From Bryobacteraceae bacterium (lineage in GTDB: Bacteria > Acidobacteriota > Terriglobia > Bryobacterales > Bryobacteraceae), in assembly GCA_026129905.1 (NCBI GenBank), contig JAHCHE010000007.1, positions 1-64,000 of the forward strand: 64,000 nucleotides of DNA. Reading direction: 5' to 3'. The position numbers were made by a program, and so were the translations under genes. Each line of letters starts with the position of its first letter. The stretch's first letter is position 1. Below the pieces are notes generated by a model. That model was not told where the DNA came from. It did not search any database and was given only the letters and a program-made list of their open reading frames with translations. Below are positions 33,390-39,604 of this stretch, piece after piece.

Positions 33390-33517
33390 GGATTGCGCTT
33401 CTCCCGGCAGCGCGTGTCGGCGAACCGGACCAGGATTGCCGACCGGGCGCGCGAGTGAGCGCCGAACACGGATTGCCGGAGTCCCCAGTATGCCAGAATG
33501 GAATTCCGGAAGGGCGG

Positions 33518-34003
33518 ATGGAAATCTATCTGTTGCGGCACGGCATCGCCGAATCGGCCAAGGCCGGCATGAGTGACGCGGACCGGGCTTTGACGCCGGA
33601 CGGCAAAAAGAAAATGCGCGCCGTGCTCAAGGTGGCAGCCGGCGCCGGAGTTGAACCGTCGAAGATCCTCACCAGTCCGCTCCGCCGCGCGATGGAGACC
33701 GCCCAAATCGCCGCCGAGGTCTTGCGCTACGAAGGGGAGGTCGTCAAGGCCGACGTTCTGCTGCCCGGCGGCGCGCCGCAGGATGTCTGGGACGAACTTC
33801 GCAGCCTGAAGGCCGAAACAAGCATCGTGCTGTCCGGACACGAGCCTCAGTTCGGCTATCTTGCGGCGTACCTGCTGGGAGCGCCCTCGGTCCAGGTGGA
33901 CGTGAAAAAAGGATCCCTGCTGCGCATCGACGTCGACGAGTTCAGCCCCCATCCCCGCGGCGTCCTCCGCTGGTACCTGACGCCGAGACTCGCCGGGGCG
34001 TAA
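33518..34003 (+). CDS. sixA: SixA-type phosphohistidine phosphatase
   Basis: 161 residues from the ATG at 33518, which gives MEIYLLRHGIAESAK at once, with GGAAGGGCGG upstream. An upstream frame start at 33455 adds non-homologous sequence. The RHG catalytic His is in the first strand. TSPLRRAMETAQI supplies the second arginine, and the distal His is in VLSGHEPQFGYLA. SixA removes phosphate from histidine phosphotransfer proteins or related substrates in the cytoplasm. The gene is monocistronic between the O-antigen ligase and the convergent end of the egt-ABC operon, whose stop is 14 bases away. Confidence 0.88.
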   Translation: MEIYLLRHGIAESAKAGMSDADRALTPDGKKKMRAVLKVAAGAGVEPSKILTSPLRRAMETAQIAAEVLRYEGEVVKADVLLPGGAPQDVWDELRSLKAETSIVLSGHEPQFGYLAAYLLGAPSVQVDVKKGSLLRIDVDEFSPHPRGVLRWYLTPRLAGA

Positions 34004-34017
34004 ACTGCGGCGCGCGA

Positions 34018-34887
34018 TCATTCGGAAAACCCGCGCAGGAACTCCCGCGCCACCTCGTCCAGCGGGCGATGTTCGCCGTCCACCTGATAGTTCAGCCGCC
34101 GCATGGTCGCCTGTGAAATTGCGCCGGACAGCGCGGTGAGCGCCTCCTGCAACCCTTCGAATTCGTCGAGCGCCTCCGCCCGCACGACCACCGCGGCTTC
34201 GTACGGTGGAAAGACGCCCTTGTCGTCCTCCAGCACGCTCACATCAAGCTTCGATAGCATCCCGTCGGTACCGTTGGCCGCCACCATCGTCACCTGGCCC
34301 TGCTGGAGCGCCCGATAGAGCAGGCCAAGATCCATTGTCTTTGGCTGCCCGTTCCACGTGAGGTTATACGCGTTCAAGGCTGCCAGTCCGTCGGGCCGGC
34401 GCTCGAACTCGTAGCCGATGCCGAGCGTCCATCCGCCGCGGCGGGCGGCGTCGCTCAACGTCGCAAGCCCTCCCGCGCGCGCGTCGGCTCCGCGCACCAC
34501 CATCGCGAACGAGTTGTTGAAACCGAGCGGCGGGAGCCACTTCACTGAGAATTTCTCCTCGTACGCCCTCGAGACGCTCTCGAAGACGCGGGCCGCGTCC
34601 CGCTCCGGCGGCATGCGGAGAACCGCCGTCAACGCCGTCCCGGTGTACTCCGGGTACAGATCGATCCCGCCGCTCACCAGCGCCTGGTGCGCCAGCATCG
34701 TTCCGCCGAGGTTCAGCCGCCGTTCCACGCGCGTCGACAGGCGCCTCTCGACCTGTTGCGCGAGAATCTCGCCCAGCACCAGTTGCTCGGTGAAGTTCTT
34801 CGAGCCGACCACGAGGCGTCGCTCACTCGCGCACGAGATCGCCAGCCCTGCGGCGATCAGTAGGGCGAGAGCCTTCGTTCCACCCAT
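34018..34887 (-). CDS. Glycine-betaine/choline-family ABC substrate-binding lipoprotein
   Basis: 289 residues from the ATG at 34887. The N-terminus MGGTKALALLIAAGLAISCA is a lipoprotein signal with cysteine at residue 19. The mature protein starts with RLVVGSKNFTEQLVLGEILA, the OpuAC/OsmF-type opening, followed by GGIDLYPEYTGTALTAVL. The family binds trimethylammonium or similar cations in an aromatic pocket. Gene order puts it at the end of the egtB-egtD-ATPase-permease operon, overlapping the permease 3' end by 31 bases, so ergothioneine, hercynine or histidine betaine is a reasonable ligand guess. Glycine betaine, choline or proline betaine remain possible. The open frame continues upstream, but that part is the permease shadow. 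Confidence 0.88.
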   Translation of the reverse strand: MGGTKALALLIAAGLAISCASERRLVVGSKNFTEQLVLGEILAQQVERRLSTRVERRLNLGGTMLAHQALVSGGIDLYPEYTGTALTAVLRMPPERDAARVFESVSRAYEEKFSVKWLPPLGFNNSFAMVVRGADARAGGLATLSDAARRGGWTLGIGYEFERRPDGLAALNAYNLTWNGQPKTMDLGLLYRALQQGQVTMVAANGTDGMLSKLDVSVLEDDKGVFPPYEAAVVVRAEALDEFEGLQEALTALSGAISQATMRRLNYQVDGEHRPLDEVAREFLRGFSE

Positions 34888-35474
34888 CCAAGCCCCCAAT
34901 CGGTGGCCAGCGCCAACAGCGCCGCCGGAATCGCTCCCGCCAGGATTTGCGACGTGTCGACCGTGGCGATGCCGCGAAAGATGAACACGCCGAGACCGCC
35001 CGCGCCGATCGCCGCCGCGATGGTGGCCGTGCCGATGGTAGTCACCGCGGCAACGCGCACTCCGGCGAAAATCGTGCGGGCCGCCAGCGGCAATTCCACT
35101 CTCCAGAGCAATTGCCGGTCCGTCAGCCCTAGCGCGACCGCTGTTTCGCGTACCGCCGGATCCACCGTGGCGATGCCGACATACGTGTTGCGCAGGATCG
35201 GCAGGAGCGCGTACAGCACCAGCGCGATCACCGCCGCGCGCGGCCCGATGCCGCCGATCACCGGAATCGGAATCAGAAATCCGAACAGGGCGAGGCTCGG
35301 CACGGTTTGGAAGACGTTGGCGACCGAGAGCGCCCAACGCTGCGCCGCGCGGCGACGGGTGGCCAATATGCCGGTTGGAATGCCGATGAGAGCGGCGAAC
35401 GCGAGCGCGAGAGCCACCAGGCCAATGTGCTCCCAGGTGAACCGGAGCAGGTCGCGCATCAATGCCTCATTCAT
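34857..35474 (-). CDS. Glycine-betaine/choline-family ABC permease
   Basis: 205 residues with six membrane segments, such as HIGLVALALAFAALIGIPTG. The binding-protein-dependent transport loop is intact (DPAVRETAVALGLTDRQLLW, EAA-like). The length is typical of OpuBB/YehW-type permeases that are not fused to a substrate-binding domain. It imports the substrate delivered by the lipoprotein encoded immediately downstream. Its start overlaps the ATPase 3' end by 8 bases, and its end overlaps the lipoprotein gene. Confidence 0.9.
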   Translation of the reverse strand: MNEALMRDLLRFTWEHIGLVALALAFAALIGIPTGILATRRRAAQRWALSVANVFQTVPSLALFGFLIPIPVIGGIGPRAAVIALVLYALLPILRNTYVGIATVDPAVRETAVALGLTDRQLLWRVELPLAARTIFAGVRVAAVTTIGTATIAAAIGAGGLGVFIFRGIATVDTSQILAGAIPAALLALATDWGLGWVERRLSPY

Positions 35475-36207
35475 GGACGCTATCCAGGCAGCTTCGGAAG
35501 GCCCGCGCCTCCTCGTGTTCCGAGCGCAGAAAATCGGGCGGCGAGGCCATTACCGCCAGCCGGCCCTGCCACAGCAGGCCGATGCGCGTACCCACCGCCA
35601 GCGCTTCACCGATATCGTGCGTGACGAACAGCGCCGCTTTGCGGAAGCGCGTCCGCGCGTCCAGGAACTGTCGCTGCGCCTCGAGCCTCGTCACCGGGTC
35701 GAGCGCTCCGAACGGCTCGTCGAACAGGAGCAAGTCCGGATCCGCCGCCAGCGCCCGCGCCACCCCCGCCCGCTGCCGCTCTCCTCCCGACAGCTCGCGA
35801 GGATACCGTGCGGCGTACGCATCGGGCGGCAGTCCAAGCGCGAGCAGCAGCTCATCCACGCGCGCCGCGATCCGCGCGCGGTCCCACTGTAGCAGTCCGG
35901 GAACCAGGCCGACGTTCGCGCCAACCGTCAGGTGAGGAAACAGCCCGACCTCCTGGATGACGTAGCCGATCCGGCGGCGGAGTTCAATCGGGTCCCACGC
36001 GGTGGTGGCGCGCCCTTCGACGATCACCTCGCCCGAATCCGGCAGCAGCAGCGCATTCACCAGTTTGAGCGCCGTCGTCTTGCCGGAGCCGCTGCGCCCC
36101 AGCAGGACCAGCGTCTCGCCGGGCATGAGTTCGAATTCGACTTCGCGCAAAACCGGGCGTCCGCCGATGGAGCACGAAACGTTGCGGAAAGCGACCAGCG
36201 GCGTCAT
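35467..36207 (-). CDS. ABC transporter ATPase, OpuA/ProV-like without CBS domains
   Basis: 246 residues. It has Walker A LLGRSGSGKTTALKL, the Q-loop YVIQEVGLFPHLTV, signature YPRELSGGERQRAGVARAL, Walker B LLLFDEPFGALD and the switch His in LFVTHDIGEA. The tail ends just after the ABC core, lacking the two CBS domains that ProV/OpuAA use for osmotic or nucleotide sensing, so regulation must differ from osmoprotectant importers. It starts 15 bases after the egtD stop, which binds the transporter to the ergothioneine genes as one transcription unit. Confidence 0.92.
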   Translation of the reverse strand: MTPLVAFRNVSCSIGGRPVLREVEFELMPGETLVLLGRSGSGKTTALKLVNALLLPDSGEVIVEGRATTAWDPIELRRRIGYVIQEVGLFPHLTVGANVGLVPGLLQWDRARIAARVDELLLALGLPPDAYAARYPRELSGGERQRAGVARALAADPDLLLFDEPFGALDPVTRLEAQRQFLDARTRFRKAALFVTHDIGEALAVGTRIGLLWQGRLAVMASPPDFLRSEHEEARAFRSCLDSVHE

Positions 36208-36222
36208 GGCTTGGCGACGGCT

Positions 36223-37212
36223 TCAGCCGGCGATCCAGAGATTTTCCGCGAACGGCCACTCCGCGTCAACCCATTGCCGTGTAGAGCGGAAGCCCGCCCC
36301 GGCCGCCATTTGCGCGAGTTCCTCCAAAGCGTACTTGTGAGACGCTTCCGTCCAGATCGTCTCGTCCGCGCGCATCCGGCAAACGAAACCGGCCTCAGGT
36401 ATGCGCACGGTCTGATCGCGCACCGAGACCAGATGCATCTCGACGCGCCGCAACCCGCGGTTGTACCGCGCCTGATGGCGAAACGCCCGGAGATCGAAGT
36501 CGGAACCCAGTTCACGATTGATGCGGCCGAGCAGGTTGAGGTTGAAGGCCGCTGTAACTCCCGTCGGATCGTCATAGCCCTCAATCAGGACCTCGGCCGC
36601 TTTTTCTAAGTCGACGCCTAACAGCAGCGCGTCGCCGGGTGAAAGGAGACGCCGGACGTCCTTTAGAAAATCGTCGGCTTGATAGCGATCGAAGTTACCG
36701 ATGTTACTTCCGAGAAACAGAAGCAGAAGCGGCCCCGCGCCGTCTCGCCGGTTCACGGCCTGCCGGAGGCCGTCCAGGTACGAGTCCTCAAACCCGGTTA
36801 CGTCCGCGACGTCCTCCAGGTCGCGCCGGCACCGTTCCAGCGCGGCCCGGGACACGTCGATCGGCAGATACTGGGGCCGGCCTCGGGCGGCGAACGCCTC
36901 CAACACGTAGCGCGTCTTCCGGCCGCTCCCGCTGCCGAGTTCGGCAATGGTCCGGCACTGCGGAAGGTAACCGGGAAGATCGCCGGAGAGGTGTCTTATC
37001 AGACGTTCATCCGCCCGAGTTACTCCGTACTCCGGCAAGTAAGTAATCGCCTCAAATAGCGCCGATCCTAAGTCGTCGTAAAGATACTTCGACGGAAGCT
37101 CTTTCTGCCCAGGCCGGCTTAAGCCCGCCCGCACATCCCGAGCGAAAGCCGAATGGAGCGCTTCCGCGCCCGCGCCGTTCGAGCCGATAGCCGCGCCCGC
37201 GGTTTTGATCAT
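36223..37212 (-). CDS. egtD: L-histidine N-alpha-methyltransferase EgtD
   Basis: 329 residues from the ATG at 37212, which has a strong GGAGGAG ribosome site five bases upstream. EgtD trimethylates histidine with three SAM to give hercynine, the first step of ergothioneine synthesis. Family landmarks are KELPSKYLYDDLGSALFEAI (37-56), the TRADERLI motif, SAM site ELGSGSGRKT at 91-100, PIDVSRAALE, LLLFLGSNIGNFDRYQ and the C-terminal EASHKYALEEL. The length matches mycobacterial EgtD (about 320). It is the second gene of the operon, 20 bases after egtB and 15 bases before the ABC ATPase. Confidence 0.95.
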   Translation of the reverse strand: MIKTAGAAIGSNGAGAEALHSAFARDVRAGLSRPGQKELPSKYLYDDLGSALFEAITYLPEYGVTRADERLIRHLSGDLPGYLPQCRTIAELGSGSGRKTRYVLEAFAARGRPQYLPIDVSRAALERCRRDLEDVADVTGFEDSYLDGLRQAVNRRDGAGPLLLLFLGSNIGNFDRYQADDFLKDVRRLLSPGDALLLGVDLEKAAEVLIEGYDDPTGVTAAFNLNLLGRINRELGSDFDLRAFRHQARYNRGLRRVEMHLVSVRDQTVRIPEAGFVCRMRADETIWTEASHKYALEELAQMAAGAGFRSTRQWVDAEWPFAENLWIAG

Positions 37213-37232
37213 TTCTCCTCCTGTCGCCGCGA

Positions 37233-38462
37233 TTACTCGACGCACCGAAATCCGGCGTACGCGTGACGGTATTCCTTCCGGAACCAGTTCCGGAACGAGC
37301 GGCGCAGCAGCTTACTCGCGGTTCTCGCCGAAGCCCCCTTCAGCACGAAGTGATCCTCGTCGAAGAAAGGCGCCGAATACCCGGGATAGAAGTCGAACGG
37401 CCGGAACCCCGGTAGCGGCCGAAACGAGTCGCGCGTCCATTCCCACCCGTTCCCGAGCATTTGCGACGCGCCAAAGGCGCTATCGCCGGCCGGATGAGCG
37501 TCTACCGGCAGCGGGTCCCAGGCGTGGAAGTCGAAATTGCCGCGCGAGGGGTCCGGCGCTTCCGCCCCCCAGGGAAACGCCCGCTCCGGGCCGTCCGGCG
37601 TTCCATAAGCCGCGCGGTGATATTGCGCTTCGGTTGGGAGGCTTTTGCCCGCCCAGGCCGCGTACGCGCTTGCCTGGACGTGCGTGACGTACGCCGGCCA
37701 GTTCAGCGGCAGCGGAATCACGCCGAACATGGTCCGCAGCTTCCACTCGCCGCCCTCCGGTTTCCAGAAGTGCGGGGTGGGACCGCCGTCGCCGACGAAC
37801 CGGAGGTACTCGCCGTTGGTTACCTTGTAGCGCCCGACGGAGAAACCCGGCGTTTTGATTTTCGTCTCGTCGAACTCGTTGTCCCAGCCGAAGCCGCTCT
37901 CGCGCGGTTGGCCAAGCGTGGCGATCCCCGGCGGTATCTCGCAATAGCGCGTCTCGGGCGGCGGCCCGGACGGCGCAACAGAAACGGCCGGTCTTGTTTT
38001 GGCGCTCGCGGGCAGATCGTGGAGCAGGTACGACAGCGTTTCCGCATGCATCAGCCGGTGCTCGATCGCGACATGGGCCATCTCGGCCGGCGCCTCTTCG
38101 ATCAGAGCGTCGATTCTCTCTCGCGCGCGCCGGTTATACCTTGATACCTCTTCAACCGAAGGCCACTCGTCAGATCGGTCCTGAGGCAATCCGGACGCGT
38201 CGGGATCGATGCCGAAGGCAAACAGCCGGTCGAAATCCGCGTGAAACGACGGGCGATCGAGGGCGTGCCGGCCGATCAGGTTCCAGTCGAACGCCTCGAC
38301 GTGGCCAAGGTAGAAAATCAGGCGGTGACGCTCCGGCGCCGGGCGTTCGTACAGCGCATCGGGCCGTACAAGGCGAAAGAGTTCGTCGGTCCTGCCTCGA
38401 GCATGCGAGAGTTGAAGTTTGAGCGGCGCGCGTAACTGTGGTTCCGTAAGCGTGGCTTGCAT
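37233..38462 (-). CDS. egtB: Ergothioneine sulfoxide synthase EgtB
   Basis: 409 residues from the ATG at 38462, with GGAGG 11 bases upstream. It has an N-terminal DinB-like domain with the three iron ligands: H54 in YLGHVEAFDW, and H135 and H139 in IEHRLMHAETL, the usual HX3HXE. A C-terminal formylglycine-enzyme-like domain follows, with AWAGKSLPTEAQYHRAAYG, GNGWEWTRDSFRPLPGF and YAGFRCVE. EgtB couples hercynine and a thiol (gamma-glutamylcysteine or cysteine) with O2. No egtC (glutaminase) or egtA is adjacent, which fits the cysteine-using EgtB described from the acidobacterium Chloracidobacterium. No egtE C-S lyase is seen in the window. SenA (selenoneine) homology cannot be excluded, but no senB is present. 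Confidence 0.93.
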   Translation of the reverse strand: MQATLTEPQLRAPLKLQLSHARGRTDELFRLVRPDALYERPAPERHRLIFYLGHVEAFDWNLIGRHALDRPSFHADFDRLFAFGIDPDASGLPQDRSDEWPSVEEVSRYNRRARERIDALIEEAPAEMAHVAIEHRLMHAETLSYLLHDLPASAKTRPAVSVAPSGPPPETRYCEIPPGIATLGQPRESGFGWDNEFDETKIKTPGFSVGRYKVTNGEYLRFVGDGGPTPHFWKPEGGEWKLRTMFGVIPLPLNWPAYVTHVQASAYAAWAGKSLPTEAQYHRAAYGTPDGPERAFPWGAEAPDPSRGNFDFHAWDPLPVDAHPAGDSAFGASQMLGNGWEWTRDSFRPLPGFRPFDFYPGYSAPFFDEDHFVLKGASARTASKLLRRSFRNWFRKEYRHAYAGFRCVE

Positions 38463-38521: not shown

Positions 38522-39604
38522 TCAGAATGGCACAATTTTGCCGGAACTCCCATTCTTCAATTCAGAAGCCGGCTGCGTCCGGCGTTGCGCCAGCGTCGAG
38601 AAAACCGCTTCCCACGCGTCATCCACGCCGATCGCGCGGATGTGCGCGCCCTCGGGATCGTCCCTGTAGGCATGGTGCGACAGGGGCCGCATTTTCTGAA
38701 TGACGACATGACCGGCGCCCCACGGGCCGGTGCGTTCCGGCTGCGTCGGGCCGAATAGCGCGACTACCGGCGTCCCCAACGCGGCCGCGACGTGCATCGG
38801 GCCGCTGTCGCCGGTCACCATCAGCCGCGACCGCCGGTAAAGACACAGCGCCTCGTCCAACGTGAGCCTGCCGGTGAGATCGGTGGCCGTTCCCGGGGCC
38901 AGCATTCGCATGAGTTCCGCCGCCTGCTGTTCCTCTCCGGGACCTCCCGTGACAATCATCGGAACGTCGGCCTCTTTTCGAATACGCTCCATCAGCCGGG
39001 CGTATCGTTCCAGCGGCCAGCGCTTCGACTTCCAGGCGGCAAACGGATTGATCGCGACGAAGCCTTCCGCCGGAACTCCGGCTGACTGCAGGATGGCGCG
39101 GAGCGCGTCATCGTCTTCCGGTGAAACGAACACCTCCGGATCGGGATCGTCCACCGGAATGCCGGCAGCCGCGGCCACGGCAACGCAGACGCGAACCGCG
39201 TGCTGGTTCAGATCCGGTAGAACCGCGTGTTGCCAGCCCGGGCGGTTATCTCCCCGTCCCGCCTTGACTCGGGCGCCGCAAGCGTATATCCACACGGCGC
39301 TCTTTCTATTCCCCTGGAAATCGATCGCCAGATCGATCCGGCGTCGCATGAAATCCAGCCGCAACCGCGCGTAGGTTCGGAGCAGGGAAAGCGCCCTCGC
39401 ATCCCGTACCGGAGCTTCGATCAAGGAATCGACATGCGGATTGTTCCGGACGACCGCCGCGAACCGCTTCTCCACCGCCATGAGAATTTCCGCTCGCGGG
39501 AAGCGCCGCCGAATCGCTTTCAGGCACGGCGTCGCGTGGACGACATCGCCCATCGAGCTGAGCTTGACGGCCAGCACCCGCCGGACGCTCGCGGGATCGA
39601 GCAT
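38522..39604 (-). CDS. GT9 glycosyltransferase, LPS heptosyltransferase-like
   Basis: 360 residues with the GT-B layout of ADP-heptose:LPS heptosyltransferases. The N-terminal fold is VLAVKLSSMGDVVHATPCLKA (GD-x2 region), then IDLAIDFQGNRKSAVW. The C-terminal nucleotide domain contains FVAINPFAAWKSKRWPLERY and VTGDSGPMHVAAALGTPVVA, followed by LFGPTQPERTGPWG. It adds a heptose or related sugar to the core of an outer-membrane glycolipid. It begins 9 bases after the stop of the TIGR03437 protein gene on the same strand. Acceptor and donor are uncertain. Confidence 0.88.
   Translation of the reverse strand: MLDPASVRRVLAVKLSSMGDVVHATPCLKAIRRRFPRAEILMAVEKRFAAVVRNNPHVDSLIEAPVRDARALSLLRTYARLRLDFMRRRIDLAIDFQGNRKSAVWIYACGARVKAGRGDNRPGWQHAVLPDLNQHAVRVCVAVAAAAGIPVDDPDPEVFVSPEDDDALRAILQSAGVPAEGFVAINPFAAWKSKRWPLERYARLMERIRKEADVPMIVTGGPGEEQQAAELMRMLAPGTATDLTGRLTLDEALCLYRRSRLMVTGDSGPMHVAAALGTPVVALFGPTQPERTGPWGAGHVVIQKMRPLSHHAYRDDPEGAHIRAIGVDDAWEAVFSTLAQRRTQPASELKNGSSGKIVPF

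Follow-up and report, generated by a model that had tools for sequence, protein, structure and literature searches.

A PF04069-type ABC transporter recurrently encoded beside ergothioneine biosynthesis genes in several bacterial phyla

The window analyzed here is a stretch of 64,000 nucleotides (positions 1 to 64,000 of contig JAHCHE010000007.1, GenBank assembly GCA_026129905.1) from a Bryobacteraceae bacterium of the Acidobacteriota, whose genome comprises 8.57 Mb in 71 contigs. It carries a locus in which two ergothioneine biosynthesis genes, an egtB-like gene and egtD, adjoin the genes for the ATPase, permease and binding lipoprotein of an ATP-binding cassette (ABC) transporter. The pairing recurs in several phyla, and functional coupling of the transporter with the ergothioneine genes is well supported; its coupling with an amino-acid N-methyltransferase, mostly EgtD, is firm. 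We favor, with slightly more confidence than doubt, the reading that this is a dedicated importer which recaptures or scavenges ergothioneine or its precursor hercynine, and, where EgtD and EgtB occur together, import of one of these two compounds offers the simplest account.

Transporter and ergothioneine genes as neighbors

A preliminary description of this DNA had placed the five genes on one strand, and the open reading frame (ORF) coordinates agree with it in order, strand and spacing: egtB and egtD are separated by 20 bases and egtD and the ATPase gene by 15, while the ATPase and permease genes overlap by 8 bases and the permease and binding-protein genes by 31. Its description of a separate binding lipoprotein and of an ATPase without CBS domains is likewise borne out by the gene coordinates and by the Pfam listing, from which a CBS domain is absent. 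The genes are as follows.

37233 to 38462, minus strand: egtB-like sulfoxide synthase, 409 amino acids, nearest EgtB-IV; Pfam FGE-sulfatase and DinB_2; below all NCBIfam cut-offs
36223 to 37212, minus strand: egtD, L-histidine N-alpha-methyltransferase, 329 amino acids; Methyltransf_33; TIGR03438 at 294.2 bits (cut-off 290.9)
35467 to 36207, minus strand: ABC transporter ATPase, 246 amino acids; ABC_tran; ProV family at 215 bits, below the cut-off of 326.6
34857 to 35474, minus strand: single ABC permease, 205 amino acids; BPD_transp_1; no fused binding domain listed by Pfam
34018 to 34887, minus strand: binding lipoprotein, 289 amino acids, with conserved Cys19; OpuAC PF04069 at 185 bits; ligand predicted as to class only

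The same order was sought in relatives, as the preliminary description had proposed, and was found in seven genomes (G000, G008, G014, G022, G026, G032, and G033) of a set of 61, in which EgtD was matched in 36 genomes and the binding protein in 32 at an E value of 0.001. With B, D, A, P and S standing for EgtB, EgtD, ATPase, permease and binding protein, the order is D-A-P-S in G037, where the contig is cut, and A-P-S-B-D in G027. A distant transporter whose binding protein is fused to the permease lies divergent from egtBD in G029, and egtBD is separate from the transporter in G001, G030 and G057. G032 holds a second transporter copy on a different contig, and contig ends prevent judgment of linkage in G034. 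Among the best 80 of 574 relatives found when GTDB contigs were scanned with the binding-protein alignment, Nitrospirota loci have A-P-S convergent with D-B, Gemmatimonadales and Binatia loci have D divergent from A-P-S, the Terriglobia have several gene orders, and one Nostocales genome has egtD 4.7 kb from the transporter. Linked loci thereby span Acidobacteriota, Nitrospirota, Gemmatimonadota, Binatota and Cyanobacteriota (taxon names of relatives are those of metagenome-assembled genomes), and the tie between transporter and biosynthesis that had been claimed for the window holds well beyond it.

A locus set was assembled from 143 different binding proteins, from which identical sequences, fragments of fewer than 200 residues and loci L211 to L218 had been dropped. 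In 120 of these an ATPase or permease gene lies nearby, and this ABC-accompanied set divides into 49 egt-linked loci, 49 unlinked loci for which the stretch read extends 3.5 kb or more to both sides, and 22 that are not judgeable. The linked loci show 11 order strings, namely B-D-A-P-S (20 loci), A-P-S-B-D (9), B-D divergent from A-P-S (7), a convergent arrangement (3), D by itself divergent (3), plus six that are rarer or cut; without the cut contigs and a single distant fusion, seven distinct orders remain. EgtB and EgtD are both present in 41 of the 49, EgtD only in 5, and EgtB only in 3, in which it lies near a contig end. The neighbors are thus kept across differing orders and strands, and no other gene family, excluding ORF clusters that overlap the transporter or egt genes, occurs in more than 9 of the 120 loci.

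A class sample of 250 genomes was searched for the binding protein at an E value of 1e-50 and for EgtD at 1e-40. The binding protein is present in 149 genomes and EgtD in 169; 130 genomes hold both, 19 the binding protein only, 39 egtD only and 62 neither (Fisher p ~9e-16, a value that ignores the relatedness of the genomes), so that 130 of the 149 genomes with a binding protein also hold egtD. Among the 150 matches listed for each, 49 of the binding-protein matches lie within 10 kb of an egtD, and the number expected by chance for the 122 listed matches in genomes with a listed egtD is 0.5 (5-Mb genomes) to 0.9 (3-Mb genomes).

On a tree of 106 of 110 binding proteins, built by a quick method without bootstrap and containing long branches, the egt-linked label requires 13 changes, of which at least 9 are forced by starred branches, compared with a mean of 23.3 for shuffled labels. 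Two of the proteins left out (L102 and L105) share contigs with L063 and L070, one (L091) has a split frame and one (L092) is a distant fusion. Linkage to egt genes is clustered on this tree, yet it has been gained, lost or rearranged many times. The Nitrospirota binding proteins nest inside those of the Acidobacteriota, which suggests transfer of the cassette. The EgtD tree, of 59 rows, was compared with the binding-protein tree by eye only.

Several neighboring genes were recorded alongside these loci. In the window, a family 9 glycosyltransferase (heptosyltransferase) gene at 38522 to 39604 on the minus strand ends 59 bases before the egtB start and could be read together with the operon, and a histidine-phosphatase-superfamily gene at 33455 to 34003 on the plus strand points toward the operon end; a promoter and terminator scan gave a result no better than shuffles. 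Elsewhere, egtBD has as a redox neighbor a protein with cyclic-nucleotide-binding and thioredoxin-reductase-like parts (L098:2643-4289, with relatives in L103, L107, and L117, the L117 member having its cyclic-nucleotide domain joined to a histidine-kinase ATPase instead of the thioredoxin-reductase-like part) or a MerA/RclA-like flavin-dependent (FAD) oxidoreductase (L075:7532-8941). Three genomes from one genus of the order (G042:C59, G045:C26, and G046:C36) encode a BCCT betaine carrier on the contig that holds egtBD, at a distance of about 20 kb. The unlinked transporter copies L121, L129 and L141, and partly L127, share neighbors that by eye resemble coenzyme F420 biosynthesis genes.

Methyltransferase and sulfoxide synthase partners

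The window EgtD retains Asn at the Asn166 place and Glu at the Glu282 place, which we take to be the residues that hold the imidazole. Its EgtB-like neighbor contains the sequence HRLMHAE, presumably the iron motif HX3HXE. The latter protein scores 225 against the OvoA N-terminal model (cut-off 400), 195 against SenA (420) and 185 against EgtB (360); as none of these curated cut-offs is reached, we call it EgtB-like rather than a member of TIGR03440. Its best solved relative is EgtB-IV (8vih, 212 bits), with EgtB 4x8b at 151 bits. Selenoneine synthesis was considered as a candidate alternative, given the below-cut-off score with SenA; in that case the adjoining family 9 glycosyltransferase might play the part of SenB. 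No EgtE-type lyase was found above the cut-off in the window genome, where 17 weak matches occur, none exceeding 400 bits.

A divergent PF10017 methyltransferase, here named MT2, takes the place of EgtD in some loci. Among the 19 genomes of the class sample with a binding protein and no EgtD at the cut-off, 12 have no PF10017 match, one (G118) has a match below the cut-off, and six have one above it, which is EgtD in G094, a fragment lying close to the binding protein in G146, and MT2 in G138, G195, G142 and G059. Against PF10017 the G138 protein (P0007) reaches 77 bits, and against TIGR03438, whose cut-off is 291, it reaches 58. MT2 lies directly before the ATPase gene in all four, although only its end is on the contig in G142 and the binding protein is on another contig in G059. 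L078 (G039) has this order too, as do three Gemmatimonadota loci, L126, L142 and L146, the last with MT2 in two pieces. MT2 and a full transporter thus occur together in seven loci (L261, L114, L112, L078, L126, L142, and L146, L112 and L114 being the G142 and G195 contigs), and L265 is an eighth MT2 locus in which the binding protein is not included. Coordinates of MT2 genes directly before the ABC genes are as follows.

L261:6622-7566, MT2
L142:1599-2531, MT2
L126:2730-3653, MT2
L078:3261-4208, MT2

MT2 carries Val, Ile or Ala instead of Asn166 (5 of 5 proteins) and Asn or Ser instead of Glu282 (6 of 6), whereas EgtD has Asn in 60 of 61 proteins, with one gap, and Glu in all 61. The four checked Acidobacteriota genomes with MT2 gave no EgtD and no full-length EgtB match (G142 is 84% and G195 83% complete): EgtB matches in G138 and G195 are partial and reach at most 50.7 bits, and G142 and G059 have none. 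In the genomes of L126, L142 and L146, where EgtD was not searched, EgtB matches reach at most 28.5 bits. On the binding-protein tree, 4 changes of the MT2 label are required, of which at least 3 are forced. MT2-like matches occur in 15 of the 250 genomes, 11 of these being distant and from the window's family; in L266 and L267, the two loci read for the distant proteins, they do not adjoin the transporter.

What the importer carries may thus track amino-acid N-methylation and not the thiol. A broader possibility, which we put forward tentatively, is a general two-part cassette of a PF10017 amino-acid N-trimethyltransferase and an importer for the resulting betaine, used most often by ergothioneine producers; certain MT2-bearing Acidobacteriota and Gemmatimonadota, without EgtB, would employ the same importer for an undescribed amino-acid betaine.

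Binding pocket and candidate cargo

PMC9732360 gives the ligand contacts of SpEgtUC, the hallmarks of EgtU and the aromatic cage of AfProX. The SpEgtUC sites were transferred through a Ligilactobacillus EgtU-type protein aligned to 7txl and from there to the window binding protein, in which they correspond to K30 (Lys242), N31 (Ile243), F32 (Gly244), G62 (Thr274), T63 (Thr275), Y81 (Phe293), T84 (Thr296), F123 (Tyr337), N125 (Asn339), F127 (Tyr341), E160 (Glu375), R164 (Arg379), N205 (Tyr419), and Y229 (Tyr443). The carboxylate contacts Lys242, Thr296 and Arg379 are kept as K30 (120 of 120 ABC-accompanied proteins), T84 (119) and R164 (120), and the imidazole-side Glu375 and Thr275 as E160 (115 of 120) and T63 (94 of 120). 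K30, F32, Y81, R164 and Y229 are invariant in all 120. Only one of the three cage tyrosines Tyr341, Tyr419 and Tyr443 is retained (F127, N205, and Y229), and the four-tyrosine cage of AfProX is replaced by Y81, F127, N205 and Y229. Site 205 is Asn in 98 proteins, Ser in 11, Asp in 7, Phe in 2 and Tyr in 2. The pocket is neither that of EgtU nor that of AfProX, though the carboxylate contacts and the imidazole-side Glu remain available. Glycine at the Thr274 place need be no bar, since a T274G mutant of SpEgtUC has been solved with ergothioneine according to the title of PDB entry 9egi.

The pocket varies little, with 93 of the 120 proteins matching the window at 13 or 14 of 14 sites. A separate pocket for egt-linked copies was considered and rejected, as linked and unlinked copies agree almost equally with the window (means of 13.2 and 13.0 of 14), and this lack of difference argues for a single cargo across both. 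Cys19, taken as the lipidation site, falls in the class of columns conserved at 90% or more among 18 aligned homologues. Eight orphan PF04069 proteins from the window's family (L084 to L090 and L093) are fast changing, have altered pocket residues and lack a related ATPase-permease pair alongside; several lie near a gene that by eye is Rrf2-like or alpha-glucan phosphorylase-like. An AlphaFold model of the window protein (mean predicted local distance difference test score, 93.8) has its highest match to choline-sensor proteins (Z 36.0), followed by Opu proteins, H. pylori EgtU 8dp6 (33.9), AfProX and SpEgtU 7txk (33.1 each) and OsmF 4wep (31.4). These values are close and single out no ligand.

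In the mechanism that we favor, ATPase, permease and lipoprotein would form a binding-protein-dependent ABC importer serving the ergothioneine pathway. Outside the inner membrane, the lipoprotein would capture a trimethylated amino-acid betaine, most likely leaked or soil ergothioneine or the precursor hercynine, and two copies of the single permease and the ATPase would move it inward. Each molecule regained would spare three S-adenosylmethionine molecules and one histidine, and hercynine, if it is the cargo, would feed EgtB. We infer the direction of transport from the binding protein and its family; the class of ligand, the pairing of two permeases and the purpose of recapture are inferences as well. 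PMC12689799 cites suggested ergothioneine secretion in M. smegmatis and reports that an engineered producer has ergothioneine in its medium and that slightly more ergothioneine follows deletion of a betaine importer, which makes leakage and re-uptake by producers plausible. A related binding protein on Rhizobium johnstonii plasmid pRL12 (L211:2321-4828) adjoins hutC and a histidine-ammonia-lyase-family protein, which falls below the hutH cut-off and has ergothionase 6s7j as its best solved relative (267 bits, versus 239 for histidine ammonia-lyase); we count this in favor of ergothioneine or hercynine as the cargo.

A number of observations weigh against that cargo. Gly244 and Phe293, invariant in EgtU according to PMC9732360, are replaced by Phe and by Tyr, respectively, in the window protein as well as in all 120 relatives, as in the glycine-betaine-binding AfProX, so identity as an EgtU was rejected; the Tyr419 place is predominantly Asn, as given above, and the closest solved structures are choline-sensor proteins (191.7 bits). 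EgtU-type proteins bind hercynine poorly according to the same paper, and its binding here would therefore require a different mode. That the transporter is paired with MT2 where neither EgtD nor a full-length EgtB is matched speaks against a strictly ergothioneine cargo. The preliminary description had looked to ABC genes occurring elsewhere without egt genes as a sign against its proposal, and such loci do exist (49 of 120), set against the equally numerous linked loci and the 22 that are not judgeable. Its proposal of salvage, recapture or hercynine uptake therefore stands in part: the coupling and the non-EgtU anatomy hold, but the pocket is not that of EgtU, MT2 is also a partner, and ergothioneine and hercynine are candidate ligands.

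We regard it as unlikely that the transporter is an ordinary importer of osmoprotectants (glycine betaine, choline, proline betaine or carnitine) that shares its operon with ergothioneine genes as a joint response to the same stress (drying, salt, oxidation). The family and the closest solved structures bind such compounds, the three switch positions named in PMC9732360 (F32, Y81 and F123) are AfProX-like, and the window genome has no other PF04069 match or BCCT carrier, so that this may be its sole importer of the kind. However, of the four AfProX cage tyrosines, one is Asn in 98 of 120 proteins and another Phe in 111 of 120, the ATPase lacks a CBS domain, and the recurrent neighbors are egt genes. 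There is also a minor chance that the importer belongs to the methyltransferase, its ligand being common to the EgtD and MT2 systems (another amino-acid betaine, or a source of methyl groups or amino acids). MT2 replaces EgtD before the ATPase in the seven full-transporter loci and in L265, EgtD adjoins the transporter without EgtB in L237, L239, L157 and L171 (the last a short stretch), and the six MT2-linked binding proteins compared match the window pocket at 12 to 14 of 14 sites; against this stand the 41 of 49 egt-linked loci with EgtB as well as EgtD and the rarity of MT2. Chance neighbors, inherited together without a functional link, are highly improbable. Unlinked copies and the nesting of Nitrospirota copies, by which one cassette has traveled, would fit such an account, but 49 close pairs among the 150 matches listed were observed where fewer than one was expected, and the neighbors persist through different orders and strands; it was rejected on the first of these grounds.

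Significance and closest known systems

If ergothioneine or hercynine is indeed imported, producers would recapture or share these compounds, which would then be traded goods among soil organisms. The altered pocket would in turn represent a second mode of recognition for such betaines. The locus set provides concrete genes for testing this import, and the MT2 loci point toward an undescribed methylated amino acid. No paper announcing a link between such an importer and ergothioneine biosynthesis was found among the titles and abstract openings of open-licence papers in PMC.

The window binding protein shares the PF04069-type EgtU/ProX/OpuC fold with EgtU (S. pneumoniae EgtUBC, Listeria BilEB, and H. 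pylori EgtU) and has the carboxylate contacts and the equivalents of Glu375 and Thr275 of SpEgtUC. Unlike EgtU, in which the two are fused, as they are in the Ligilactobacillus comparison protein, the window has binding protein and permease as two genes. The window ATPase has no listed CBS domain, whereas that of EgtU carries CBS domains according to the preliminary description. The known importers were described in PMC9732360 for bacteria unable to make ergothioneine; the putative importer here lies beside the biosynthetic genes, in several phyla. AfProX, OpuBC, OpuCC and the choline sensors likewise share PF04069 and the fold, and AfProX the residues F32, Y81 and F123 (same paper), but the aromatic cage of the window protein is incomplete and its gene context is ergothioneine rather than osmoprotection. 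OsmF/YehZ (NF049931) is the only NCBIfam match of the window binding protein, which lies far under its cut-off (118.9 bits versus 400). As in bacterial ergothioneine biosynthesis generally, the window has an EgtD over the cut-off and an EgtB-like protein nearest to EgtB-IV; unlike it, the window genes come with no EgtE-type lyase over the cut-off and are joined to an ABC importer.

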